Source: Mycolicibacterium chubuense (lineage in GTDB: Bacteria > Actinomycetota > Actinomycetes > Mycobacteriales > Mycobacteriaceae). From it: a stretch of DNA of 60,685 nt. The position numbers and the translations under genes were made by a program. The notes under the pieces are model-generated. The model saw only the letters and a program-made list of their open reading frames with translations. It was not told the DNA's origin and did not search any database. Numbering within the stretch: the stretch's first letter is position 1; every line of letters begins with the position of its first letter. The DNA lies in the NCBI RefSeq assembly GCF_001044255.1, contig NZ_JYNX01000039.1, forward strand, positions 1 to 60,685. The letters run 5' to 3'. Shown here piece after piece: positions 28,092 through 40,147 of this stretch.

Positions 28092-30362
28092 TCACCTCGC
28101 ATGTGACGGTCTGATGCGTTCGTGCAGCCTCGCCAGCGGCGCGGGCGCCCACCAGTTCCACCGTCCCATCAGATGCATCATCGCGGGCAGCAGCACCATT
28201 CGCACCACCGTGGCGTCGATCAGCACCGCCAGCGTGAGACCGAGTCCGAACATCCGCATGAAGGAAACCTGGGCGGCGACCAGCGCACCGAACGAGATCG
28301 CCATGATCAGCGCCGCGGCCGTCACCACCCGCCCGGTGCGCGCCAGACCGACGGCGACGCTCTCGTCGTTGTCGGCGCGGGTGCGCCCGCTGGCCAACCA
28401 CAGTTCGCGGATGCGGGCGAGGAGGAACACCTCGTAGTCCATCGACAACCCGAAGGCGATACAGAACAGCAGGACGGGCATATTGGCCACCAGCGTCCCG
28501 GTGGGGGTTGTGCCCAGGGCGCCGAGATTGCCGTCCTGGAAGATCCAGACCAACGCGCCGAACGCCGCGGTCAGCGAGAGCGTGTTGAGGATCAGCGCCT
28601 TCAGCGGCAGCACCACGCTGCCGGTCAGCAGGAACAGCAGTACGAACGTCACGACGGCGACGATGCCCAGCACCGCGGGCAGCCGGGCGGTGATGGCGGT
28701 GAGGGTGTCGGCGTTGATCGCCGCGATCCCGGTCAGCTCGACCGTGCGGCCGCCGGGTCCGGGCAGGGCACGGAGGCGGTCCAGCTGCGCGTCGGATTCC
28801 GGGGTGAACAGCGGGGTGCTGCTGGCGACGGTGAGGAACGCGACACCCCGGTCCAGGCCGGAACCGGTGGCCGGCGGCCCGACCCGGGTGCCCTCGACGA
28901 ACGTGCCCGCCGGCGAGTCGACCGCCGGGACTCCCGGCAGCAGCGACGCCGACCGGGCGTAATCGGTGAAGGCACTGGGCGTCAACCCGTGGGCGTCGGG
29001 CAGCACCACGGTCACCGCGGCCTCCGAGTTCCCGGGGAACTGGGCCCGCATCAGGTCACCGACCTGACGCGACGACGCCGACGTCGGCAGCACACGGTCG
29101 TCGGGCAGACCCCACGCCACCTTCAGGAAGGGCGCCCCCAGAGCGAGGAGCAGCACCGTGGTGGCGGCCCCGATGGGCAGCGCCCGCCGGATGACGAACC
29201 GGGTGGTGCGGTACCAGAACATCTGGTCGGTCGGGCGCGGCTGGGCACGCGGCGGACCGAGGAGGCGGTGCAGATCGAATGCGTCGAGCCGGGGGCCCAG
29301 CGCCATGATGGCCGACGGCGTCACGACGATCGCCGCGAGCGCACACAGCGCCACCGTCGCCACCCCGGCGTAGGCGAAGGAGGTGAGGAAGTACATGGGG
29401 AACAGCGCCATCGCGGCCATCGACAGCGCCACCGTCAGCGCGGAGAACAGCACGGTCCGGCCCGCGGTGACCATCGTGGTGATCAGCGCCTGCTCCCGGT
29501 CGGCGCCGTCGGCCATCTCGTCGCGGAAGCGGCTGACGATCAGCAGCGTGTAGTCGACGGCCAGCGCCAGGCCCAGCGCTGTGGTGAGGTTCAGCGCGAA
29601 GATCGAGGCGGGGGTCACCATCGCCACCAGCCGCAGCACCGACAGCGACCCGACGATCGCCAGCGCGCCGACGGCCACCGGGAGCGCCGCGGCCGGCAAC
29701 CCGCGGAACACCCACACCAGGACCAGGAAGGTCAGCGGGATCGCGATCGACTCCATCAGCACCACGTCGCGCAGGGTCTGACTGTTGATCTGGGCGTACA
29801 CCATCGCCGAGCCGCCGGCCAGCACGCTCACCCCGCCGTGCCGGGGCGCGATGTCCGCGGCCACCTGGTCGGCGAGCCGTTCAGCCACCCGGGGTGCGTC
29901 GTCCTCGCCGCCGGCCAGCTCCGCCACCACCAGGCCCGAGCGGCCGTCGGCGCCCGTGAGCCCCGGCGTACCCGGAGGCGCCGTCCACGCCGACACCACC
30001 CCGACGACTTCGGGGGCGGTCCGCAGCAGCGCGACGATGTCCTCCCCGGCCGCGCGGGCGTCGGGGCTGTCCACGCCCGCGGAATCGGTGACGCCGAACA
30101 CCAGCTGCATCCCGCCTCGGCCGAACGTCTCCATCAGTGTGGTTGTCGCACGGGCGGATTCGGCGGCCGGATCCTGAAAACCCCCGGCGGACAGGCTCGA
30201 TGCGGCCGGCACGCCGAACACCGCGCCCGCGACGAGGGCCAGGGCGGCGAGCGCGAGGATTCGCCGCGGCGCGGCGATGGCGGTGAGCGCGACGCGGTGC
30301 AGCACGGTGATCCGCTTGCGGTGGCGGCCGCGCAGACCATCGGGGCGGGTCGGGATGGCCAT
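28092..30362 (-). CDS. MMPL-family RND transporter
   Basis: A 756-residue inner-membrane transporter with the MMPL double layout: a first helix (about 33-55), an extracytoplasmic loop, a helix bundle, then a second copy. The proton-relay Asp-Tyr pairs of MmpL proteins are seen in LAVDYTLLIVSRFRDE and LSMDYEVFLLARIRE. Length is short for lipid-exporting MmpL proteins, as for the compact MMPL class. It lies between a glycosyltransferase and crtE on the same strand, so export or placement of a pigment or glycolipid is possible; cargo unknown. ATG at 30362 lacks a strong ribosome site. Confidence 0.85.
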   Translation of the reverse strand: MAIPTRPDGLRGRHRKRITVLHRVALTAIAAPRRILALAALALVAGAVFGVPAASSLSAGGFQDPAAESARATTTLMETFGRGGMQLVFGVTDSAGVDSPDARAAGEDIVALLRTAPEVVGVVSAWTAPPGTPGLTGADGRSGLVVAELAGGEDDAPRVAERLADQVAADIAPRHGGVSVLAGGSAMVYAQINSQTLRDVVLMESIAIPLTFLVLVWVFRGLPAAALPVAVGALAIVGSLSVLRLVAMVTPASIFALNLTTALGLALAVDYTLLIVSRFRDEMADGADREQALITTMVTAGRTVLFSALTVALSMAAMALFPMYFLTSFAYAGVATVALCALAAIVVTPSAIMALGPRLDAFDLHRLLGPPRAQPRPTDQMFWYRTTRFVIRRALPIGAATTVLLLALGAPFLKVAWGLPDDRVLPTSASSRQVGDLMRAQFPGNSEAAVTVVLPDAHGLTPSAFTDYARSASLLPGVPAVDSPAGTFVEGTRVGPPATGSGLDRGVAFLTVASSTPLFTPESDAQLDRLRALPGPGGRTVELTGIAAINADTLTAITARLPAVLGIVAVVTFVLLFLLTGSVVLPLKALILNTLSLTAAFGALVWIFQDGNLGALGTTPTGTLVANMPVLLFCIAFGLSMDYEVFLLARIRELWLASGRTRADNDESVAVGLARTGRVVTAAALIMAISFGALVAAQVSFMRMFGLGLTLAVLIDATVVRMVLLPAMMHLMGRWNWWAPAPLARLHERIRPSHAR

Positions 30363-30430
30363 GGTGCCGAGCAGCCTGCGTCACCCGCCCCGCGCGGCGG
30401 TAGCGGCGGCGTCAATATGTCAGCGATGCG

Positions 30431-31729
30431 TCACGGGTTGGCGCAGGTGCGCGTCTTACGCTCGGTCAGCCCGTCGATGACATCGGCCAGGCCGGTGAAC
30501 CCGGGTGCGGCGGCCATCTGAGCGGCCAGCCGCGCTGAGGCCTGCCGGTACCGACCGTCGTGCAGCACCGCGAGGATCTCGCGGCGCAGCACGCGCGCCG
30601 ACGGGTGTTCGCTGCGGATCCGCCGTCCGACGCCCGACCACGCGACCCGCGCGCCCACCTCGGGCTTGTCCTCCTTGCCGCCGGTCGCGACGATGGGCAC
30701 ACCGAAGCGTAGTGCGTACTGCACGCCGCCGTATCCGCCGTTGGTCACGAAAACCGAGGTGCGCGGCAGTAATTCGTCGTAGGGAAGGTAAATTGCGGCG
30801 CGCGCGTTGGCCGGCAGGTCGGGCAGCGTGTCGAGCGGCCGGCCACCGGTGGTGACCGCCACCAGGACGTCCTCGTCGGCGAGGGCACGCAGCGTCGGCG
30901 CGATCAGTTGCTCGTAGTCGAGGTTGGCGAGGGTGCCCTGCGTGACGTGCACGACCGGGCGGCTGCCGTCCAGTTCGGACCACCATTGCGGCAGCGGCGC
31001 CTGCGATCCGGTCGCCGACAACGGTCCGGCGAAGTGCAGCGCCTCGGGCGCATCCGACCGGGGGTATTCGAACCCCGGCACGGTGAACTGGACCAGCGCG
31101 TCGGCGCGCCGCCCCCAGTCGATCATCGTGCCCGGCATGTCGACGCCGTGCAGGTCGCGGTGGAGGGCGTCGATCACGGCGTACGGCCGCCGCAGCACCC
31201 GGCGGTTCACCCCCGCCAGTACCGCGTTGCGGGGACGGTTGAGGATGCGCGCGGGCGCGAGCCCCATGCCGAACGGTGCGGTGTCGCGGCTCTCGACGCA
31301 GAGCGGGAGAACGCCGCACACGACCACGGCGGGCCGCTCGGGGCGCGGACGGTGCAGGAGAAACGCGGCGCCGACGAACGCCGGCTCGACCAGCACGGCG
31401 TCGGCCGGCCGCTCGGCGAGCGCCGCCACGAGCGCGCCGTACTGTTCGCGCGCCGGCCGCGCGAAGACGTGCTCGATGTCGAAGGCGATCGCGCGGGCGC
31501 CCTTGAGCCGGGCGCGCTGCGGGAAACTGCGCGTGAGGTCGCGGTCGTCGTAGTCCGCCTCCGGAGGCAACGGCACGAACCGCGCGCCCGTCGCGGCGAC
31601 CTTGTCCGCGAAGCGGGAACCGGTGACGAACCGGACGTCGTCGCCGCGCGCCACCAGGTGGGCGGCCACGGCAAGGAGTGGGGTCACATGCCCGTGGACG
31701 GGCACGCTCCCGATGATGATCGACGCCAT
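30431..31729 (-). CDS. GT1-family glycosyltransferase
   Basis: A 432-residue GT-B glycosyltransferase. N-terminal acceptor half: IIIGSVPVHGHVTPLLAVAA. C-terminal donor half: VVHVTQGTLANLDYEQL and FVTNGGYGGVQYALRFGVPI, in which the usual HGG is NGG. The family GxxxxD/Q segment reads ATGGKEDKPEVGARVA. Start ATG at 31729 with GGGAGGG nine bases upstream. It is 68 bases before the MMPL gene and divergent from a TetR regulator. It differs clearly from the other GT of the island (20022-21245), so the two are not a recent duplication. Confidence 0.82.
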   Translation of the reverse strand: MASIIIGSVPVHGHVTPLLAVAAHLVARGDDVRFVTGSRFADKVAATGARFVPLPPEADYDDRDLTRSFPQRARLKGARAIAFDIEHVFARPAREQYGALVAALAERPADAVLVEPAFVGAAFLLHRPRPERPAVVVCGVLPLCVESRDTAPFGMGLAPARILNRPRNAVLAGVNRRVLRRPYAVIDALHRDLHGVDMPGTMIDWGRRADALVQFTVPGFEYPRSDAPEALHFAGPLSATGSQAPLPQWWSELDGSRPVVHVTQGTLANLDYEQLIAPTLRALADEDVLVAVTTGGRPLDTLPDLPANARAAIYLPYDELLPRTSVFVTNGGYGGVQYALRFGVPIVATGGKEDKPEVGARVAWSGVGRRIRSEHPSARVLRREILAVLHDGRYRQASARLAAQMAAAPGFTGLADVIDGLTERKTRTCANP

Positions 31730-31748
31730 GACACCCTCCCGGCCGTCC

Positions 31749-31774
31749 ACTACTGTCGTGTAGTATTCATTACT
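31749..31774 (+). promoter_or_regulatory. TetR promoter with dyad, probably leaderless
   Basis: TAGTAT (31761-31766) is a good -10 box ending eight bases before the GTG at 31775. It overlaps the inverted repeat ACTAC-N6-GTAGT (31749-31764), which would let the TetR protein block both its own promoter and that of the divergent glycosyltransferase. Confidence 0.45.
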
Positions 31775-32431
31775 GTGCCACCCAAGTCAATGCCCTCTCG
31801 GGGCTCGCGCGCCTACCGATCGGAGCTGCGCGAGCAGCAGGCCCTCGCCACCCGCCAGCGGGTGCTTCAGGCCGCAGCCGAGTTGTTCGCCGCCGACGGC
31901 TACGCCCGCACCACCATGGCGAAAATCGCTGCGGCAGCCGGTGTCTCGGCCGAGACCGTGCAGGGCCTCGGACCCAAGGCCGCACTGATGGTCGCCGCGA
32001 TCGAGGATGTGGCGTTCGGTGTCACCGGCGACCAGAACATCCTCGACCTCGACCCCGGCCGCGCTCTGCTGACCATCGAGGACGTCTCCGAGGCCGTCGA
32101 CTTGGTCGTCGCGGTGCAGACCGACATCCACGAACGCACGGCCACGCTGTACCGGGCCCTCGCCGCCGGGGCGGGCGCCGACCCCGTCCTGGACCGATAC
32201 CTGTCCGACCTGACCGCCGGGGTCGGCCGGCAGCTCCGTCGGGTCGTCGACGTGTTCCGCGACCGCGGCTGGGTGCGCACCGACGTGGCCTACGACGAGG
32301 TCGTCGAGACAGCGGTGGTGCTGGCCGGCGTCGAGACGTTCCTGCGGTTCACCCATCACGACGGGCACAGCGTCGAGGCATTCCGGGAGTGGCTGCGCCG
32401 GATGCTGCGGGAGACGGTCTGCGCGCGGTGA
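31775..32431 (+). CDS. TetR-family regulator
   Basis: A 218-residue regulator. The N-terminal helix-turn-helix covers about 26-70: ATRQRVLQAAAELFAADGYA, then MAKIAAAAGVSAETVQ. The ligand domain follows and carries no named motif. GTG at 31775 fits leaderless expression; ATG at 31790 is the alternative, and neither has a ribosome site. It diverges from the glycosyltransferase/MMPL genes and is their likely repressor. Confidence 0.87.
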   Translation: MPPKSMPSRGSRAYRSELREQQALATRQRVLQAAAELFAADGYARTTMAKIAAAAGVSAETVQGLGPKAALMVAAIEDVAFGVTGDQNILDLDPGRALLTIEDVSEAVDLVVAVQTDIHERTATLYRALAAGAGADPVLDRYLSDLTAGVGRQLRRVVDVFRDRGWVRTDVAYDEVVETAVVLAGVETFLRFTHHDGHSVEAFREWLRRMLRETVCAR

Positions 32432-32438
32432 CCCCGGC

Positions 32439-32465
32439 TGTCACACAGTGCGGTGCTGCGTCGTC
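32439..32465 (+). promoter_or_regulatory. ECF41-type promoter before the decarboxylase gene
   Basis: TGTCACA (32439-32445), a 16-base spacer, then CGTC (32462-32465), eight bases before the ATG at 32474. As I recall the published ECF41 motif, it has TGTCACA at -35 and CGTC at -10. The placement in the short gap after the TetR stop supports a real promoter giving an almost leaderless transcript. Confidence 0.75.
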
Positions 32466-32473
32466 TCCCCGGT

Positions 32474-33043
32474 ATGACCACACGTATCGAACCCGTCCCC
32501 GTCCAGCGTGCCTCCCTGTTGACCCGACTGATGTGGCGCTACGCCCGCCGCCGCTTCGGCGAGGTCCCGGAACCGTTCGCCGTCTACGCCCACCACGGCG
32601 GCCTGCTGATGACGGCCGCCGCCCACGAGGGCATGCTCGAGCGGGCCTCGACGACACTGCCGGCCGACGTGCGCGAACTGGCCGTGTACTGGACCGCGCG
32701 CAAGATCGGCTGCTCGTGGTGCGTGGACTTCGGAGCCATGCTGATGCGCCTCGAGGGCCTGGACCTGTCGCGGCTCACCGACATCGACGACTACGCGACC
32801 TCACCGCTCTACTCCGACGACGAACGGGCGGCGATCGGCTATGCCGCGGCGATGACCACCGACCCGCACACCATCACCGATGAGCAGGTGGCCGACCTGC
32901 GCCGCCGCTTCGGGGACAAGGGTGTCATCGAGCTGACCTACCAGGTCGGCGTCGAGAACATGCGGGCCCGGATGAACTCCGCGCTCGGCATCAGCGAACA
33001 GGGCTTCGCCTCCGGTGGTGCGTGCCGGGTCCCGTGGCGGTGA
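32474..33043 (+). CDS. Carboxymuconolactone decarboxylase/AhpD-like protein
   Basis: A 189-residue protein of the CMD/AhpD fold. It carries the redox CxxC motif in KIGCSWCVDFGAML (near residue 80), as in AhpD-type peroxidase partners, and ends in helices (LTYQVGVENMRARMNSALGI). It probably acts as a thiol-dependent peroxidase-like enzyme. ATG at 32474 is chosen because the promoter motif ends eight bases before it; GTG at 32453 would lie inside the promoter. It is the C type of the C/O/E enzymes tied to ECF41 sigma factors, one of which is 3 kb downstream. Confidence 0.85.
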   Translation: MTTRIEPVPVQRASLLTRLMWRYARRRFGEVPEPFAVYAHHGGLLMTAAAHEGMLERASTTLPADVRELAVYWTARKIGCSWCVDFGAMLMRLEGLDLSRLTDIDDYATSPLYSDDERAAIGYAAAMTTDPHTITDEQVADLRRRFGDKGVIELTYQVGVENMRARMNSALGISEQGFASGGACRVPWR

Positions 33044-33067
33044 CGCCCCAGGTGTTTCAATCGTCGG

Positions 33068-33697
33068 ATGACCCGCGATGAGCCTCCGGCCGGTGCAGGC
33101 GGGCGACCTCGCGACGCCACGATCGACGAGCGCGTGCTGGCCACGACCCGCGAGTTGCTTCTCGAGGTCGGCTGGGACGACCTCAGTGTGCGAATGGTGG
33201 CGACCCGGGCCGGCGTGGGCCGCGCCAGCCTGAGCCGCCGCTGGACCTCCAAGGCCGAACTCGTGCTGCATGCGATCCTCGGCGAAACCCCGGATCTGAC
33301 ACCGTTTTCCGGCACCGACCTGACCGGCTGGGTCGAGTGGGTGGTGCGCGGCAGCCATCAGCTGTTCAACCGGCGCGACGTCAACGAGGCGGTACCGGGG
33401 CTGCTGCTGGCGCTGCGCGAGAACGACGACATGCGAAAAGCCTTGTGGGCGAACTTCAGTACGCCCGCGGTCGCACTGTTCGCCGAGCATCTGGCGGCCG
33501 ACACACCGGCCCGGCGCCGGCGTGCCGAGCTTAATGCCCGCGCGGTGCTGGTGATGGCCGCCGGGGCGGCACTGTTCCTGAACACCGTCGCCGTCGACGA
33601 CGATTCCGAGGCGCTACGGCGCCGGATTGCCGAGCTGCTGTCGACGAGCATCGGCGACACTCCCCCGCGCCGAGGCGATGATCGCCGCCCGCGGTGA
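33068..33697 (+). CDS. TetR-family regulator
   Basis: A 209-residue regulator with the helix-turn-helix at about 20-65 (RVLATTRELLLEVGWDDLSV, then VATRAGVGRASLSRRW). It begins 24 bases after the decarboxylase stop and probably shares its transcript. Its last 84 bases overlap the 3' end of the facing epimerase gene, an unusually long tail-to-tail overlap in which both frames look like real protein. Confidence 0.85.
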   Translation: MTRDEPPAGAGGRPRDATIDERVLATTRELLLEVGWDDLSVRMVATRAGVGRASLSRRWTSKAELVLHAILGETPDLTPFSGTDLTGWVEWVVRGSHQLFNRRDVNEAVPGLLLALRENDDMRKALWANFSTPAVALFAEHLAADTPARRRRAELNARAVLVMAAGAALFLNTVAVDDDSEALRRRIAELLSTSIGDTPPRRGDDRRPR

Positions 33698-34630
33698 CCG
33701 CCACTGCATCCCGAGATCGCGCAGCGTCGTGGTGTCGTCGGTCGGTGTGGCCGCCAGCAGCAGGATCGCCGCCTCGTAACTCAACCCGTCGGGCAGCGCG
33801 ACGTGGCGTGCGAGAACATCGGTGGCGCGGGCGGCGGCGAGCAGCACGGGTGCCGGCACCGGGACCCGGCGGATCCGCCGGCCGAGACCGGTCTGCAGCG
33901 CGTCGATCATCTCGTCGAATCCCAGCAGTTCCCCGCCGCACACATAGCGGCGCGGGCCCCGGCCGGGGCGCATCACCCGCGTGTGCACCTCAGCGACGTC
34001 GCAGACGTCGATCATCTGCATGCCGCCCCGTAGCCGCGGCGCGACGGCCCAGCGCACGATCGGCGCCCACCCGCGTTCGGTGACCCCCGGCGCGGTGCCG
34101 AACGCCGGACCGACGACGCTGGACGGATAGGTCACCACGACGGGGGCGCCGTCGTCCTGCAGCCGACGCGCGACCCGGTCGGCGTACGCCTTGGTCTTGG
34201 CGTAGGCGCTGCGCCCCACCGCGGTCGGGGTCTGCGGTGAGATCACGCCGTCGGTCGGCGGGAAGAGGGCACTGTAGCTGCTCACGGTCAGCACCGGGTC
34301 CAGCCCACGCTCGACCGCCCGATGCAGGATCGCCTCGGTCGCGAAGGCATTGACGTCCCACATCAGCCGCACCCGCCGCTCGTCGGTGCCGACGACACCG
34401 GCCGCGTGCACGAGCGCCTCACAGCCGTCGAGGAACGCGACAACGTCTGCCTCACAACAGATGTCGCCGACCGTCACGGCTACCGACCCCGCGGCGCGCA
34501 GCCGGTCGAGCACGGGCGCACCCGCCTCACCCGGCGGCACCAGCAGGCGCAGCCGATGGCCGGCCGCCAGCAGCGCGCGCGCCGTGTGCGCCCCCACGTA
34601 CCCGGTTGCCCCGGTGACCGCGATGTCCAG
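33614..34630 (-). CDS. NAD-dependent epimerase/dehydratase (extended SDR)
   Basis: A 338-residue protein with a Rossmann fold. Reading from 34630 gives LDIAVTGATGYVGAHTARAL, which holds the full GxxGxxG cofactor motif. The active-site Ser/Tyr/Lys pattern is seen in VSSYSALFPP and SAYAKTKAYADRV (YxxxK). The only start that keeps the cofactor loop is CTG at 34630, with GGAGG at a normal distance; a stop codon lies upstream, and GTG at 34597 would cut the loop. Substrate unknown. This is the E type of ECF41-linked enzymes, beside the sigma gene cluster and divergent from the flavin oxidoreductase. Confidence 0.8.
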   Translation of the reverse strand: MDIAVTGATGYVGAHTARALLAAGHRLRLLVPPGEAGAPVLDRLRAAGSVAVTVGDICCEADVVAFLDGCEALVHAAGVVGTDERRVRLMWDVNAFATEAILHRAVERGLDPVLTVSSYSALFPPTDGVISPQTPTAVGRSAYAKTKAYADRVARRLQDDGAPVVVTYPSSVVGPAFGTAPGVTERGWAPIVRWAVAPRLRGGMQMIDVCDVAEVHTRVMRPGRGPRRYVCGGELLGFDEMIDALQTGLGRRIRRVPVPAPVLLAAARATDVLARHVALPDGLSYEAAILLLAATPTDDTTTLRDLGMQWRSPRAAIIASARGSVADARRQQLGNPAP

Positions 34631-34673
34631 TGTTCCCGCCTCCTCGACGCCGGGGTGCTACATTACGATGCCA

Positions 34674-35876
34674 ATGGCATCGATACAAGCGTTCAGCCCG
34701 GCGACCCTGGGCCCGCTCACGCTGAAGAACCGGTTCATCAAGGCCGCCACCTTCGAGGGGGTGATGCCGCGCGGACACGTCAGTCCGGCGCTGGTGGACT
34801 TCCACGCCGAGGTGGCCCGCGGCGGCGCGGCGATGACCACGGTGGCGTACTGCGCGGTCTCCCCCGGCGGCCGGGTGCACCGCGACACGATCGTCCTCGA
34901 CGCCTCGCGCGCCCGGCAACTGCGCGCGCTGACCGACGCGGTCCACGCCGAAGGCGCCCTGGCGTGCGCCCAGATCGGTCATGCCGGCCTGGTGGCCAAC
35001 ACCCTGTCCAACCGGACGCCCACGCTGGCGCCGTCCACCCGGCTCAGCGCGCCGGCCATGGGCGTGGTGCGGGCCGCGACGGTTCACCAGCTCGACGCGC
35101 TCGTCGACGACTTCGGCGCTGCCGCAGCACATGCCGTCGACGCCGGGTTCGACGCGATCGAGATCCACATGGGCCACGGCTATCTGCTCAGCTCGTTCTT
35201 CAGCCCCAATCTCAACCGGCGCACCGACCGCTACGGCGGGGACACCGCCCGCCGGGCCGAACTCGCGCGCCGGGTCGCCGAGCGGGTGCGCCACACGGTC
35301 GGCGACACCGTCGCCGTGACCGCGAAGTTCAACATGGACGACGGTGTGCGACGCGGCTTCTGGCTCACCGACAGCCTGCCCACCGCACGGCTGCTGGAGA
35401 GCGACGGACATCTCGACGCGCTGCAGCTCACCGGCGGCAGCTCACTGGCCAACCCCATGTACTACTTCCGCGGAGACGTCCCGCTCGACGAGTTCATCGC
35501 GTCCCAACCGCGCGCCGTCGGCCTCGGACTGCGGCTCATCGGCAAGCGCATGTTTCGCGAATATCCCTTCACCGAGGCCTTTTTCGCCCCGCAGGCCCGC
35601 CAGTTCCGGGCAGCACTGTCGATGCCGTTGATCCTGCTGGGCGGCATCAACCGGATGGACACCGTGACCGCGGCGCTCGACGACGGTTTCGCGTTCGTCG
35701 CGATGGCCCGGGCGCTGTTGCGAGAACCCGACCTGGTCAACAGGTTTCGCGACCGGACCGCCACGGAGGGTCTGTGTGTGCACTGCCAGAAATGCATGCC
35801 GACCGTCTACAGCGGAACTCACTGCGTGGTGCGCAGCGGTGAACCGGTGAACTTGTCCGGGTTGGCGATGTCGTAA
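34674..35876 (+). CDS. NADH:flavin oxidoreductase (old yellow enzyme family)
   Basis: A 400-residue FMN-binding TIM-barrel enzyme reducing activated double bonds. It has LKNRFIKAATFEG at the start, AQIGHAG, FDAIEIHMGHGYLLSSFFSP with the conserved His pair region, NRRTDRYGG, and the phosphate strand LGGINRMDTV. The C terminus has four cysteines (CVHCQKCMPTVYSGTHC) like the iron-sulfur site of larger dienoyl-CoA reductases, but no FAD domain follows. ATG at 34674 or 34668; TACATT just upstream may be the -10 box. Its 3' end overlaps the facing sigma gene by 58 bases. It is the O type of ECF41-linked enzymes. Confidence 0.87.
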   Translation: MASIQAFSPATLGPLTLKNRFIKAATFEGVMPRGHVSPALVDFHAEVARGGAAMTTVAYCAVSPGGRVHRDTIVLDASRARQLRALTDAVHAEGALACAQIGHAGLVANTLSNRTPTLAPSTRLSAPAMGVVRAATVHQLDALVDDFGAAAAHAVDAGFDAIEIHMGHGYLLSSFFSPNLNRRTDRYGGDTARRAELARRVAERVRHTVGDTVAVTAKFNMDDGVRRGFWLTDSLPTARLLESDGHLDALQLTGGSSLANPMYYFRGDVPLDEFIASQPRAVGLGLRLIGKRMFREYPFTEAFFAPQARQFRAALSMPLILLGGINRMDTVTAALDDGFAFVAMARALLREPDLVNRFRDRTATEGLCVHCQKCMPTVYSGTHCVVRSGEPVNLSGLAMS

Positions 35877-36727
35877 ACCGCCACCACCCGTCCGTCGCAC
35901 ACCGTCAGCGCCTGGATCCGGGGCGCGATCGCGGGCCCGTGCGCATCCCCGTCGTCGCCGCGGGAGAACACGCCCAGTTCACCGTTGACCAACCCGAGCT
36001 CGCCGCTGGTGAACAGCCGTGTCCCGTAGCGGCGCGCCAAGCCCAGGAGGAACCGCGCCACCTTGTCTCTGCCGTGGATGACCTGTGGCGCCGTCGGCGC
36101 GCGCCGGTTCGCGTCGCCGCTGAACGTGACGTCGGGATGCAGCAGCGCCACCACGGCCTCCAGATCGCCGGCCGCCATCGCCGCCATCAGCGCACCGACC
36201 ACCTCGTCGTGCTCGGCCGCCGGCGGGGGCGCCGTGGAGACGGTGCGGCGCGCCCGCGACGCGAGCTGCCTCGCCGCGGCGGGCGTGGCCCCGAGAACGT
36301 CGGCGATCTCGTCGAACGGCACCGCGAATCCGTCGTGCAGCACGAACGCCACCCGCTGATCGGGCGTCAGATTCTCCAGCACGACCATGGCCGCGAAGCG
36401 GGCATCCTCCCCGGCCACCACAGCGGCCAGCGGGTCGTCCCCGTCGAGCGTCGTCACCACCGGTTCGGGCAGCCAGGTGCCGGCGTAGGTCTCGCGCCGG
36501 TGGGCCGCCGATCGGAGCCGGTCGAGCGACAGCCGGCTGACCACCGTCGTGAGCCAGGCCCGCAGGTCGACGATCGCGGTGTCGGTCCGCCGGGCCCGGT
36601 GGGCGTCCCAGCGCAGCCAGGCATCCTGCACCACGTCCTCGGCGTCGGCGAACGTGCCGGTGAGGCGGTAGCCCACGGCGAGCAGGTAGGGACGCAGCTC
36701 TTCGAAGTCCTCGACCCGCGCGGTCAT
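35819..36727 (-). CDS. sigJ: ECF41-type sigma factor (SigJ-like) with SnoaL-like C-terminal domain
   Basis: A 302-residue sigma factor. Region 2 (about 5-70) reads VGYRLTGTFADAEDVVQDAW; region 4 (about 105-160) reads LENLTPDQRVAFVLHDGFAV and EIADVLGATPAAARQLASRA. A SnoaL-like domain (about 175-295) follows and ends with DIANPDKFTG, the NPDK motif that is typical of ECF41 factors, whose fused domain replaces an anti-sigma factor. Size and next genes agree with M. tuberculosis SigJ (Rv3328c). ATG at 36727. It probably drives the decarboxylase promoter at 32439. Confidence 0.9.
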   Translation of the reverse strand: MTARVEDFEELRPYLLAVGYRLTGTFADAEDVVQDAWLRWDAHRARRTDTAIVDLRAWLTTVVSRLSLDRLRSAAHRRETYAGTWLPEPVVTTLDGDDPLAAVVAGEDARFAAMVVLENLTPDQRVAFVLHDGFAVPFDEIADVLGATPAAARQLASRARRTVSTAPPPAAEHDEVVGALMAAMAAGDLEAVVALLHPDVTFSGDANRRAPTAPQVIHGRDKVARFLLGLARRYGTRLFTSGELGLVNGELGVFSRGDDGDAHGPAIAPRIQALTVCDGRVVAVYDIANPDKFTGSPLRTTQ

Positions 36728-36750
36728 GACATCGAGGGTAGTACCCCTCA

Positions 36751-36777
36751 AACGCAACGAAATCCGAAGCTGTGAAG
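36751..36777 (-). promoter_or_regulatory. Possible weak ECF41-type promoter of the sigma gene
   Basis: Read on the minus strand: CTTCACA, a 16-base spacer, CGTT, located 24-50 bases before the sigma ATG. It matches the strong site at 32439 in spacing and in eight of eleven motif bases. Weak on its own. Confidence 0.3.
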
Positions 36778-36853
36778 TTGATGAATCGACGGAATCAGTC
36801 AATAGTGATCGGGTTCACAACCGATTCCGGCTGATTTCGACCGAGGAGGGCCC

Positions 36854-38575
36854 GTGGTCAAGCACGAAGTGATTCACGGTGAAGGCACCGTGGAGAGCAA
36901 GGGACTCAAGGGCGGCGCCCTCGGGCTGGTGTCGAGCATCGTGGTGGGGATGGCCTCGACGGCGCCGGCCTACAGCCTGGCCGCCACGCTCGGCCTGATC
37001 ATCGCCAGCGGGGGCGCGCTGTTGTCCGGTGTGAAGGCGCCTGCCATCGTGCTGATCTCCTTCATCCCCATGTACCTGATCGCGGTCGCCTACCAGGAGC
37101 TCAACAAAGCCGAACCGGACTGCGGCACGACCTTCACCTGGGCGTCGCGCGCCTTCGGCCCGGTCGTCGGCTGGCTGGGCGGCTGGGGCATCATCGCCGT
37201 CGACGTCATCGTGATGGCCAACCTCGCGCAGATCGCCGGGGCCTACTCCTTCACCTTCGCCGGGGACCTCGGCTGGGACTCGGCGGCCACGCTGTCCGAC
37301 AGCACGTTCTGGTCCACCGTCGCCGGTGTCATCTGGATCGCGGTGATGACCTACATCTGCTACCGCGGCATCGAGGTGTCGGCGCGCCTGCAATACGCAC
37401 TGCTGGGCATCGAGGTGGTCGTGCTGATCGGGCTGTCGATCGTCGCGCTGGTCAAGGTGTACACCCGCACCGCAGAGAGCTACTCGCTGATGCCGTCACT
37501 GTCCTGGTTCTGGCCCGGCGGACTGGACTTCAGCACCGTCATCGCGCCGGCGATCCTGACCACGATCTTCATCTACTGGGGCTGGGACACCGCCGTCGCG
37601 TGCAACGAGGAGTCCGACGACCCCGGGCGCACCCCCGGCCGGGCCGCCGTCATCTCGACCTTCCTGCTGCTGGCCACCTACGCGCTGGTGAGCGTCGCGG
37701 CCGTCGCGTTCGCCGGTGTCGGCACCGACGGGATCGGGCTGGGCAACCCGGACAACTCGGCCGACGTGTTCGCCGCGATCGGACCGGATCTGTTCGGCGA
37801 CAGTGCGCTCGGGCACATCGGGATGCTGCTGCTGTCGGCGTCCATCCTGACCTCGGCGTCGGCGTCGACGCAGACCACGATCCTGCCGACCGCGCGCACC
37901 ACGCTGTCGATGGGCGTCTACCGCGCCCTGCCCGAGTCGTTCGCGAAGATCCACCGGCGCTACCTGACTCCGACCACGTCGACCATCGCGATGGGCGTGG
38001 TGTCGGCGATCTTCTACGTGCTGTTCACCGTGATCAGCACCAACCTGCTGACCGCGCTGATCGGCTCGGTCGGGCTGATGATCGCCTTCTACTACGGGCT
38101 GACCGGTTTCGCCTGCGTCTGGTTCTACCGAAAGACGTTGACGCGCAACACCCGTGACCTGGTGATGCGCGGGGTGGTGCCGCTGCTGGGCGGCATCGTG
38201 CTCCTCGTGGTCTTCGTCTACGGCCTGCTGCAGTACGCCAAGCCGGACTGGCTCACCGACGACGACGGCAACAACGTGACCATCTTCGGCGTCGGCGCCG
38301 TCGCGGTGGTGGGCATCGGCGCGCTGGTCCTGGGCCTGGTGCTCATGGTGGTCTGGCGGTTCATGTCGCCCGACTTCTTCAAGGGCGTGACGCTGCCTCG
38401 TCGCAGTCACGACCTGGTGCTGGAGACGGTGCCCGATCAGGAGGCGGCGGTGCCCCGCTTCGGTCTGCCCGACGCCGGCGACGTGCCCACGATCATCGCC
38501 AAGGATCTGTCCAACCTGCCGCCCGGCGAGAAGGCGATCGACCCGCTGACCGGCCACGAGTACACCAAGAACTGA
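36854..38575 (+). CDS. APC-family amino acid/polyamine permease
   Basis: A 573-residue membrane protein with about twelve to thirteen helices and a 50-residue hydrophilic C-terminal tail. The APC features are the first-helix glycine motif (GLVSSIVVGMASTAPAYSLA) and EPDCGTTFTWASRAFGPVVG. Later, IYWGWDTAVACNEESDDPGR and ILTSASASTQTTILPTARTT are shared closely with the next gene. GTG at 36854 follows GAGGAGGG. Substrate is not shown by sequence; the downstream catabolic genes suggest amines or amino acids. Confidence 0.87.
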   Translation: MVKHEVIHGEGTVESKGLKGGALGLVSSIVVGMASTAPAYSLAATLGLIIASGGALLSGVKAPAIVLISFIPMYLIAVAYQELNKAEPDCGTTFTWASRAFGPVVGWLGGWGIIAVDVIVMANLAQIAGAYSFTFAGDLGWDSAATLSDSTFWSTVAGVIWIAVMTYICYRGIEVSARLQYALLGIEVVVLIGLSIVALVKVYTRTAESYSLMPSLSWFWPGGLDFSTVIAPAILTTIFIYWGWDTAVACNEESDDPGRTPGRAAVISTFLLLATYALVSVAAVAFAGVGTDGIGLGNPDNSADVFAAIGPDLFGDSALGHIGMLLLSASILTSASASTQTTILPTARTTLSMGVYRALPESFAKIHRRYLTPTTSTIAMGVVSAIFYVLFTVISTNLLTALIGSVGLMIAFYYGLTGFACVWFYRKTLTRNTRDLVMRGVVPLLGGIVLLVVFVYGLLQYAKPDWLTDDDGNNVTIFGVGAVAVVGIGALVLGLVLMVVWRFMSPDFFKGVTLPRRSHDLVLETVPDQEAAVPRFGLPDAGDVPTIIAKDLSNLPPGEKAIDPLTGHEYTKN

Positions 38576-38635
38576 CGTCTCACAGGTTTTTCGCACTGTC
38601 CTGCCAGGAGGCTCGCAGGACCGTATATTGCGCGC

Positions 38636-40147
38636 ATGGCAATCACCTCCGAACCGTCGACCCCTGCTGTCGGCAGCAAGGGGCTGCAGGCCGGTGCGCT
38701 CGGCCTCGTCGGCAACGTCGTCATCGGTCTGGCGGCGGTGGCGCCAGCCTACAGCCTGGCCGCCACGCTCGGCTACGTCGTGCTGGAGGTCGGCGAGAAG
38801 GCGCCGTCGATGTTCGTGCTGGCGTTCATCCCGATGCTGCTGGTGGCGTTCGCCTACAAGGAGCTCTCGCAGGAGACCCCGGACTGCGGCACGACGTTCA
38901 CCTGGGGCACCAAGGCTTTCGGCCCGTGGATCGGCTGGATCGGCGGCTGGGGGCTGGCCGTGTCGGCCATCATCGTGCTGGCCAACGTCGCCGAGATCGC
39001 CGCGATCTACCTCTACAACTTCCTCGGCCTCGACGATCTGGCCGACAACACCTTCGCCACAGTCGGATTGGGATGCTTCTTCATCGTGTCGATGACGCTG
39101 GTGTCGGCCCGCGGCATCGTCGTCAGCGAGCGGGTGCAGAACATCCTGATCGCCGTCCAGTTCGGCGTGCTGATCATCGTCAGCGTCATCGCACTGGTCC
39201 GGGTGTTCTCCGGAACCGCCGGCGCGCAGGCGATCAGCCCTCAGCTGTCGTGGCTGTGGCCCAGCGGATTGGACACGTCGTCGATCGCCGCGGCGGTGAT
39301 CCTGTGCATCTTCATCTACTGGGGTTGGGACGCCTGCCTGGCCGTCGGTGAGGAGACCAAGGATCCCGGCCGGACGCCGGGCATCGCTGCGGTCATCACC
39401 ACGCTGATCCTGGTGTGCACCTATGTGCTGGTGGCTTACGCACTGCAGTCGTTCGCCGGATTCGGTGAGGTCGGCATCGGGCTGAACAACGCGATGAACT
39501 CCGACGACGTGCTCACCGTGCTCGGCGAACCGGTGGCGGGCACGATCGCCGCGTCCGCGCTGCTGCTCACCGTCTCGGTGTCGGCGCTGTCGTCGACGCA
39601 GACCACCATCCTGCCCACCGCGCGCGGCACGCTGTCGATGGCCGTCTACGAAGCCATCCCGAAGCGGTTCGCCAACGTGCATCCGCGCTACATGACGCCG
39701 GCGTTCGGCACGATCGTGATGGGTCTGGCCGCCCTGTTCTTCTACCTGCTGCTGAAAGTGTTGTCGGAGAACGCCCTCGCCGACTCGGTGGCCTCCCTCG
39801 GGCTCGCGGTCGCGTTCTACTACGGCATCACCGCGTTCGCCTGCGTCTGGTATTTCCGCCGGACGCTGTTCAGCTCGGTGCGAAATCTGTTCTTCCGCGG
39901 CATCTTCCCGCTGCTGGGCGGCCTCGCGATGGCGGCGGCGTTCGTGATCAGCGCCAAGGACATGATCGCGCCGGACTACGGCTACACCGCGTTCGGTCCC
40001 ATCGGCGGGGTATTCGTGCTCGGGGTCGGCATGCTGGTGCTCGGCATCCCGTTGATGCTGGCGTGCTTCGCGTTCGGCACGAAACGCTTCTTCCGCGGCG
40101 AGACGCTCAACGCATCCACCGAAGTCCAAGTACCCGACGTCTACTGA
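38636..40147 (+). CDS. APC-family permease, paralogue of the preceding gene
   Basis: A 503-residue permease with about twelve helices. It shares blocks with its neighbour (VAPAYSLAATLGYV, CGTTFTWGTKAFGPWIGW, IYWGWDACLAVGEETKDPGR, SSTQTTILPTARGTLSMAVY) but lacks the long C-terminal tail, so the pair arose by an old duplication. ATG at 38636; TATATT about ten bases upstream may be its own -10 box, and the gap to the first permease is only 60 bases. It leads into the stress-protein gene nine bases later. Confidence 0.87.
   Translation: MAITSEPSTPAVGSKGLQAGALGLVGNVVIGLAAVAPAYSLAATLGYVVLEVGEKAPSMFVLAFIPMLLVAFAYKELSQETPDCGTTFTWGTKAFGPWIGWIGGWGLAVSAIIVLANVAEIAAIYLYNFLGLDDLADNTFATVGLGCFFIVSMTLVSARGIVVSERVQNILIAVQFGVLIIVSVIALVRVFSGTAGAQAISPQLSWLWPSGLDTSSIAAAVILCIFIYWGWDACLAVGEETKDPGRTPGIAAVITTLILVCTYVLVAYALQSFAGFGEVGIGLNNAMNSDDVLTVLGEPVAGTIAASALLLTVSVSALSSTQTTILPTARGTLSMAVYEAIPKRFANVHPRYMTPAFGTIVMGLAALFFYLLLKVLSENALADSVASLGLAVAFYYGITAFACVWYFRRTLFSSVRNLFFRGIFPLLGGLAMAAAFVISAKDMIAPDYGYTAFGPIGGVFVLGVGMLVLGIPLMLACFAFGTKRFFRGETLNASTEVQVPDVY

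Follow-up and report, generated by a model that had tools for sequence, protein, structure and literature searches.

A conserved SigJ-CMD gene pair and an inserted TetR-SDR-OYE cassette, two probably independent regulatory units at one locus of Mycolicibacterium chubuense

When a sigma factor of the extracytoplasmic function (ECF) group ECF41 lies beside members of all three enzyme classes known as its partners, namely carboxymuconolactone decarboxylases, oxidoreductases and epimerases (COE), does it control all of them? The question is raised by a locus on contig NZ_JYNX01000039.1 of Mycolicibacterium chubuense (assembly GCF_001044255.1), of which a stretch of 60,685 nt, the window, was analyzed. 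Here a SigJ-type sigma factor gene is accompanied by genes for a carboxymuconolactone decarboxylase-like protein (CMD), a TetR-family regulator (TetR2), a short-chain dehydrogenase/reductase (SDR) of the epimerase type and an Old Yellow Enzyme (OYE)-family oxidoreductase, which a preliminary description of this DNA read as one complete regulon. We consider it highly probable, judging from sequence comparison across the genus, that two independent regulatory units share the locus, and that SDR and OYE belong to a separate TetR cassette rather than being partners of SigJ. Open reading frame (ORF) analysis, Pfam, NCBIfam and a motif scan recovered the genes and the motif exactly where they had been placed, in the strand-alternating order CMD> TetR> <SDR OYE> <sigJ (window 32474-36727), a layout that does not bear out the single unit previously assumed for them:

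32439-32465, plus strand: ECF41/SigJ-type promoter TGTCACA-N16-CGTC, with CGTC 8 nt 5′ of the CMD ATG; same geometry at 119/120 CMD loci with sigJ
32474-33043, plus strand: CMD-like/AhpD-like CxxC protein, 189 aa, with CSWC; ATG at 32474; probable SigJ target, probably on a leaderless mRNA
33068-33697, plus strand: TetR2, TetR-family regulator of the inserted cassette; Pfam TetR_N, 45 bits
33614-34633, minus strand: NAD-dependent epimerase/3beta-HSD-like SDR, 339-aa form; Pfam Epimerase; several homologues align over 99%
34663-34685, no strand assigned: near-palindromic, operator-like element TTACGATGCCAATGGCATCGATA that overlaps the OYE start codon
34674-35876, plus strand: OYE-family NADH:flavin oxidoreductase, 400 aa; Pfam Oxidored_FMN, 161 bits
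35819-36727, minus strand: SigJ-type ECF41 sigma factor with sigma2, sigma4, SnoaL_2, the WLPEP linker motif and the NPDK motif

SigJ and its convergent partner CMD

The sequence in front of CMD matches the published ECF41 consensus TGTCACA-N16-CGTC, and COE genes are described as the only detectable targets of this group (PMC3426412). Taken on its own, a single copy in the window says little, since 0.24 copies are expected there by chance (spacers of 15-17 nt) and 21 of 100 shuffles contain one. We sampled 148 Mycobacterium genomes, the present one included, of which 129 hold a CMD orthologue (a few partial or broken) and 19 hold none at the level used and are outside the promoter counts. SigJ orthologues in 118 genomes, together with G086 (a fragment running off its contig) and G089 (in pieces), make up 120 CMD loci with sigJ, and GTCAC[A/G]-N16/17-CGTC-N8/9-ATG was found before CMD at 119 of them. 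Chance was thus rejected as the source of the motif, given this conservation of both sequence and spacing. The form [N]GTCAC[A/G]-N16-CGTC-N8-ATG accounts for 113 of the 119, with N9 in five and a 17-nt spacer plus 8 nt in one; the −35 element is exactly TGTCACA in 64, its first and last letters varying. The sole exception, G089 (L308), reads GGTCACA-N16-CGCC-N8-ATG, with CMD and SigJ both in pieces at 67% identity, and looks like a pair in decay.

CMD and sigJ lie on one contig in convergent orientation in 118 of 118 genomes, separated by at most 150 bp in 77 and by 0.5-4.9 kb in 41. G089 is outside these gap counts and outside the CMD+SigJ tree, as are, for the tree, G076, whose coordinates were merged from two matches per gene, and G134 and G045, whose sigma and CMD matches, respectively, are partial. 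Among 81 genomes of other genera searched, 33 matched CMD at E ≤ 1e-50 and 44 gave no match; at the 26 CMD homologue loci fetched, all from other genera of the family, the motif was present at 23 (with no ATG in the 14 nt that follow it at 21 of them) and a convergent sigma gene lay inside the fetched flank at 20. The promoter match 8 bases before the CMD ATG is therefore real by conservation, and this conservation, together with the invariant convergent pair, makes CMD the likely direct target of SigJ, in agreement with what the preliminary description had proposed for its CxxC protein. Since the constant 8-nt distance is too short to accommodate a leader carrying a ribosome-binding site, the CMD mRNA is probably leaderless in Mycobacterium; a literature search on leaderless ECF41 mRNA in mycobacteria brought up one paper, which concerned Sinorhizobium. 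CMD as a core target at a fixed promoter-to-ATG spacing is a sharp prediction for mycobacterial SigJ, and Wecke et al. (PMC3426412) was the only match, among the papers searched, for a pairing of carboxymuconolactone decarboxylase with mycobacterial sigJ.

A genome-wide scan, suggested earlier as a means of listing further targets, showed the CMD site to be the sole exact N16 copy in the 5.9-Mb genome (the reversed-pattern control also has one, and other Mycobacterium genomes have 0 to 9 exact copies). Allowing one mismatch made the scan uninformative, as it then gave 52 sites and the reversed control 43; no further SigJ targets are claimed from it.

The sigma factor itself is mycobacterial SigJ of the ECF41 group, a placement made by subfamily model and motifs. 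Pfam Sigma70_r2, Sigma70_r4_2 and SnoaL_2 all scored above cut-off, the NCBIfam SigJ model PRK09636 gave 400 bits (cut-off 271) and the SigX4 model TIGR02957 235.7 bits, below its cut-off of 323. The match to the M. tuberculosis SigJ structure 5xe7 is near full length (E = 1.7e-124), with TWLPEPV and NPDKF both aligned and F as the fifth residue of the latter in both proteins. A WLPEP linker motif and an NPDKL-type motif in the extension are given as ECF41 hallmarks in PMC7730460, which also reports, second-hand, that an M. tuberculosis sigJ mutant is H2O2-sensitive. The ECF41 assignment made at the outset thus holds. A Pfam scan of the eight genes from the GT gene to the permease gene found no anti-sigma-like gene next to sigJ, and ECF41 activity is restrained by the fused SnoaL-type extension, as reviewed in PMC8999054. 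An auto-regulatory promoter was rejected, the ECF41 motif being found upstream of sigJ in 0 of 118 genomes, and sigJ does not appear to be auto-regulated. A TANNNT-like hexamer, TACCCT, stands 7 nt before the sigJ ATG (about 36735-36740, minus strand), which suggests housekeeping, near-leaderless expression of sigJ; by eye, similar hexamers occur in some relatives. Next to sigJ lies a permease gene, as in many relatives, followed here by a second permease-like stretch (38669-40138, 48% identity to the first, within the region 36854-40138).

CMD matched no Pfam family at E ≤ 0.001, and its NCBIfam matches to peroxidase-related families were all below cut-off (TIGR01926, 45 bits against 81.8). 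The family label is given because of these sub-cut-off matches and of weak matches to solved AhpD/CMD-type proteins (E of 3e-8 at best to 3e-5), the CSWC motif being present.

Nine CMD loci without sigJ (L146, L150, L159, L164, L181, L189, L222, L227, L259) carry TGTCACA-N16-CATC-N8-ATG in every case. Because these nine genomes group together as a single clade (support 0.97 in the CMD(+SigJ) tree), the change from CGTC to CATC counts as one correlated change and not as nine. Perhaps another ECF sigma factor took over CMD in this clade, and the change offers a natural experiment on which −10 base a given ECF41 sigma factor reads. In six of the nine, a permease gene starts within 400 bases downstream of CMD; conserved second CATC sites in three of these genomes were dropped, as they looked by eye like in-frame coding sequence.

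The TetR-SDR-OYE cassette in the CMD-sigJ gap

Orthologues of OYE (77-97% identity) are found in 14 other genomes, and two of these, G054 and G082, hold the cassette between CMD and sigJ as in the window. In the other 12 the cassette stands alone, with tetR2 in 12 of 12 and SDR in 11 of 12 (two as split matches); CMD or SigJ was found in none of the 10-kb regions around these 12 cassettes, and two of the genomes, G093 and G136, lack sigJ altogether. The tetR2-SDR part is found in seven further genomes, where OYE is fragmentary in two (L275, L276) and absent from the 6 kb read in five (L271-L274, L277); with tetR2, SDR and the operator-like element persisting at these loci, OYE looks like the dispensable part. 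The cassette is thus present in at least 22 sampled genomes, adjoining sigJ in 3 and away from sigJ in 19, a count that is a lower bound because OYE-less cassettes were found solely through exact operator matches. An ECF41-type motif for SDR, OYE or TetR2 was rejected: even in relaxed form it occurs within 250 nt upstream of 0/15 OYE, 0/21 SDR and 0/22 tetR2 genes, against a background of 7/896 window stretches.

A 23-bp block with the consensus TTTCGATGCCAATGGTATCGAAA is conserved at all 15 OYE loci, with 14 of 23 columns invariant and CCAATGG in every copy; at most loci its left edge is overlapped by a hexamer resembling TATATT or TACATT. Symmetry holds for 7-10 of 11 pairs, a level that shuffles reach in at most 4% of cases for 12 of the 15 loci. 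The core CGRTRCCAATGGYAYCG has 24 exact sites in the 148 genomes, against one for the reversed control, and 21 of the 24 lie within a cassette: 14 at OYE starts, partly by construction since the pattern was made from those loci, and 7 at SDR starts of cassettes without an intact OYE, loci outside the pattern building. The remaining three lie elsewhere, with no cassette gene. The element accompanies tetR2-SDR even where OYE has been lost, as would be expected of a TetR2 operator, which it most likely is, and it provides a cassette-specific candidate operator. TetR2 itself matched no named TetR family above cut-off in NCBIfam. In 13 of 22 cassettes, that of the window among them (TTCAAT), tetR2 has a TTSAAT box close to its start, which may be its own promoter element.

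In the window, tetR2 starts 24 nt downstream of CMD and its 3′ end overlaps SDR by 84 nt. The probable SDR start is a CTG at 34633, after GAGGAGG, the first GTG lying at 34597; by eye, the CTG is also present in G054 and G082, and other cassettes differ at that codon. At the far end, OYE and sigJ overlap by 58 nt at their 3′ ends on opposite strands (35819-35876), covering the NPDK codons. The C-terminal tail of OYE was probably gained upon insertion, because the OYE proteins of standalone cassettes align only to residue 388-390 of 400 in 11 cases and to 328 in the twelfth. No clear shift in G+C marks the insert (0.65-0.75 across 30000 to 39000), and 190 plasmid records had a match, of which the best covered 26% of the query and none reached 80%.

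The gap receives insertions recurrently. In 41 of 118 genomes (L145-L269, L031, L032 and window 33044-35876) extra DNA of several unrelated contents separates the two genes CMD and sigJ, including a pyridoxamine-oxidase-like protein (15 genomes; Pfam match below cut-off), a PE-family protein (9 genomes), an AraC regulator (9 genomes) with an alpha/beta hydrolase (8) and a methyltransferase (3), a steroid 5-alpha-reductase-like protein (7 genomes), and single cases of a gamma-glutamyltransferase and a metallophosphatase; part of the inserts were scanned, and the names come from one representative per cluster. Insert genes were called as ORFs by length and codon-position G+C, a procedure that missed the minus-strand SDR of the three cassettes in the gap. 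The first called gene is on the CMD strand in 29 of 40 inserts, the genomes being related and not independent events. It is conceivable but doubtful that the gap is a recurrent landing site that places incoming genes behind the SigJ promoter, in which case the captured first gene in this lineage, a repressor, would give SigJ indirect negative control of SDR and OYE. In a tree of joined proteins the three cassettes located in the gap form one clade (support 1.0), and by CMD+SigJ G082 groups with genomes whose gap is empty; this means that the cassette was either inserted once, long ago, and subsequently lost from some genomes, or that the locus was exchanged.

The two-unit model and its rivals

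Taking these observations together, we propose that the first unit is the ancestral convergent pair CMD> <sigJ, in which SigJ would be expressed constitutively, probably, and kept inactive by the fused SnoaL domain as long as no signal relieves it, and would then direct RNA polymerase to TGTCACA-N16-CGTC to yield a leaderless or near-leaderless mRNA for the CxxC redox-type protein CMD. The second unit would be the TetR-SDR-OYE cassette inserted between them. Here TetR2 is predicted to bind the 23-bp element at the OYE start and so to keep the divergent SDR and OYE repressed; a ligand, which may be a substrate of OYE or SDR, would release TetR2. Several points weigh against this model. The units may be partly linked, since tetR2, only 24 nt behind CMD, could be co-transcribed with it. 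The operator is an imperfect palindrome whose symmetry is reached by 7% of shuffles in the window, 27.5% in L077 and 79.5% in L081, so that its case rests on conservation more than on symmetry. The sigJ-less clade keeps the TGTCACA −35 element, so another sigma factor may also read CMD-type promoters.

The complete local regulon of the preliminary description, in which SigJ controls CMD, OYE and SDR, would accord with the presence of all three COE classes within 4.3 kb of an ECF41 gene, and Oxidored_FMN and Epimerase are among the domains that class the O and E partners in Wecke et al. 2012 (PMC3426412). We regard it as very improbable, as the relaxed ECF41 motif is missing from the 250 nt upstream of every OYE and SDR gene read, here and in related cassettes, and the cassette occurs at other places with neither sigJ nor CMD close by. 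The co-occurrence of the four genes in other mycobacteria, proposed earlier as a check, stands for CMD and sigJ and fails for the cassette, which is present in only 3 of the 118 pairs. That E and O genes lie here calls for no regulatory explanation and does not speak for SigJ control, because the gap carries other, unrelated inserts in many relatives. The locus thereby corrects an argument of guilt by neighbourhood: three COE classes near an ECF41 gene can stem from an unrelated insertion. TetR2, earlier regarded as a possible second input, is more likely the cassette's own repressor, though read-through from CMD into its gene could still occur. Such read-through from the SigJ promoter, giving more repressor and lower SDR and OYE expression in this lineage, is conceivable but doubtful: CMD and tetR2 share a strand, with about 35 nt between them in G054, and the strand preference of first insert genes points the same way, whereas the gap is about 277 nt in G082 and the TTSAAT box may give tetR2 a promoter of its own. 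Reading of CMD by another ECF41 paralogue, or by several sigma factors, with SigJ merely a neighbour, is improbable; it draws on the five or more sigma matches of this genome (E ≤ 0.001, 15 of 47 candidates scored) and on the TGTCACA-N16 retained, with CATC, in the sigJ-less clade, and is opposed by the way CGTC follows sigJ, being kept at 119 of the 120 loci that have the sigma gene and altered at all 9 that lack it, and by conservation of the pair across genera.

Comparison with known systems

TetR-family repressors that control adjacent divergent enzyme genes are a general type, and the cassette resembles it: its regulator gene adjoins two divergent enzyme genes, and a conserved near-palindrome covers a start site. 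In M. tuberculosis, a SigJ-dependent promoter has been reported upstream of sigI, and the present sigma factor is an orthologous match to that SigJ over nearly its whole length, including WLPEP and NPDKF. The closest known systems are the ECF41 sigma/COE pairs Ecf41Bli-YdfG of B. licheniformis and Ecf41Rsp-RSP_0606 of R. sphaeroides, as described in Wecke et al. 2012 (PMC3426412), with which the SigJ-CMD pair shares a fused C-terminal extension, a CxxC carboxymuconolactone decarboxylase-like target (here a probable one), the TGTCACA-N16-CGTC promoter and a single detectable target. By contrast, the window has a convergent gene order and a TetR-SDR-OYE cassette in the gap, and its target mRNA is probably leaderless (N8 to the ATG), whereas the same source gives 5′ untranslated regions of 31-32 nt for ydfG and RSP_0606.

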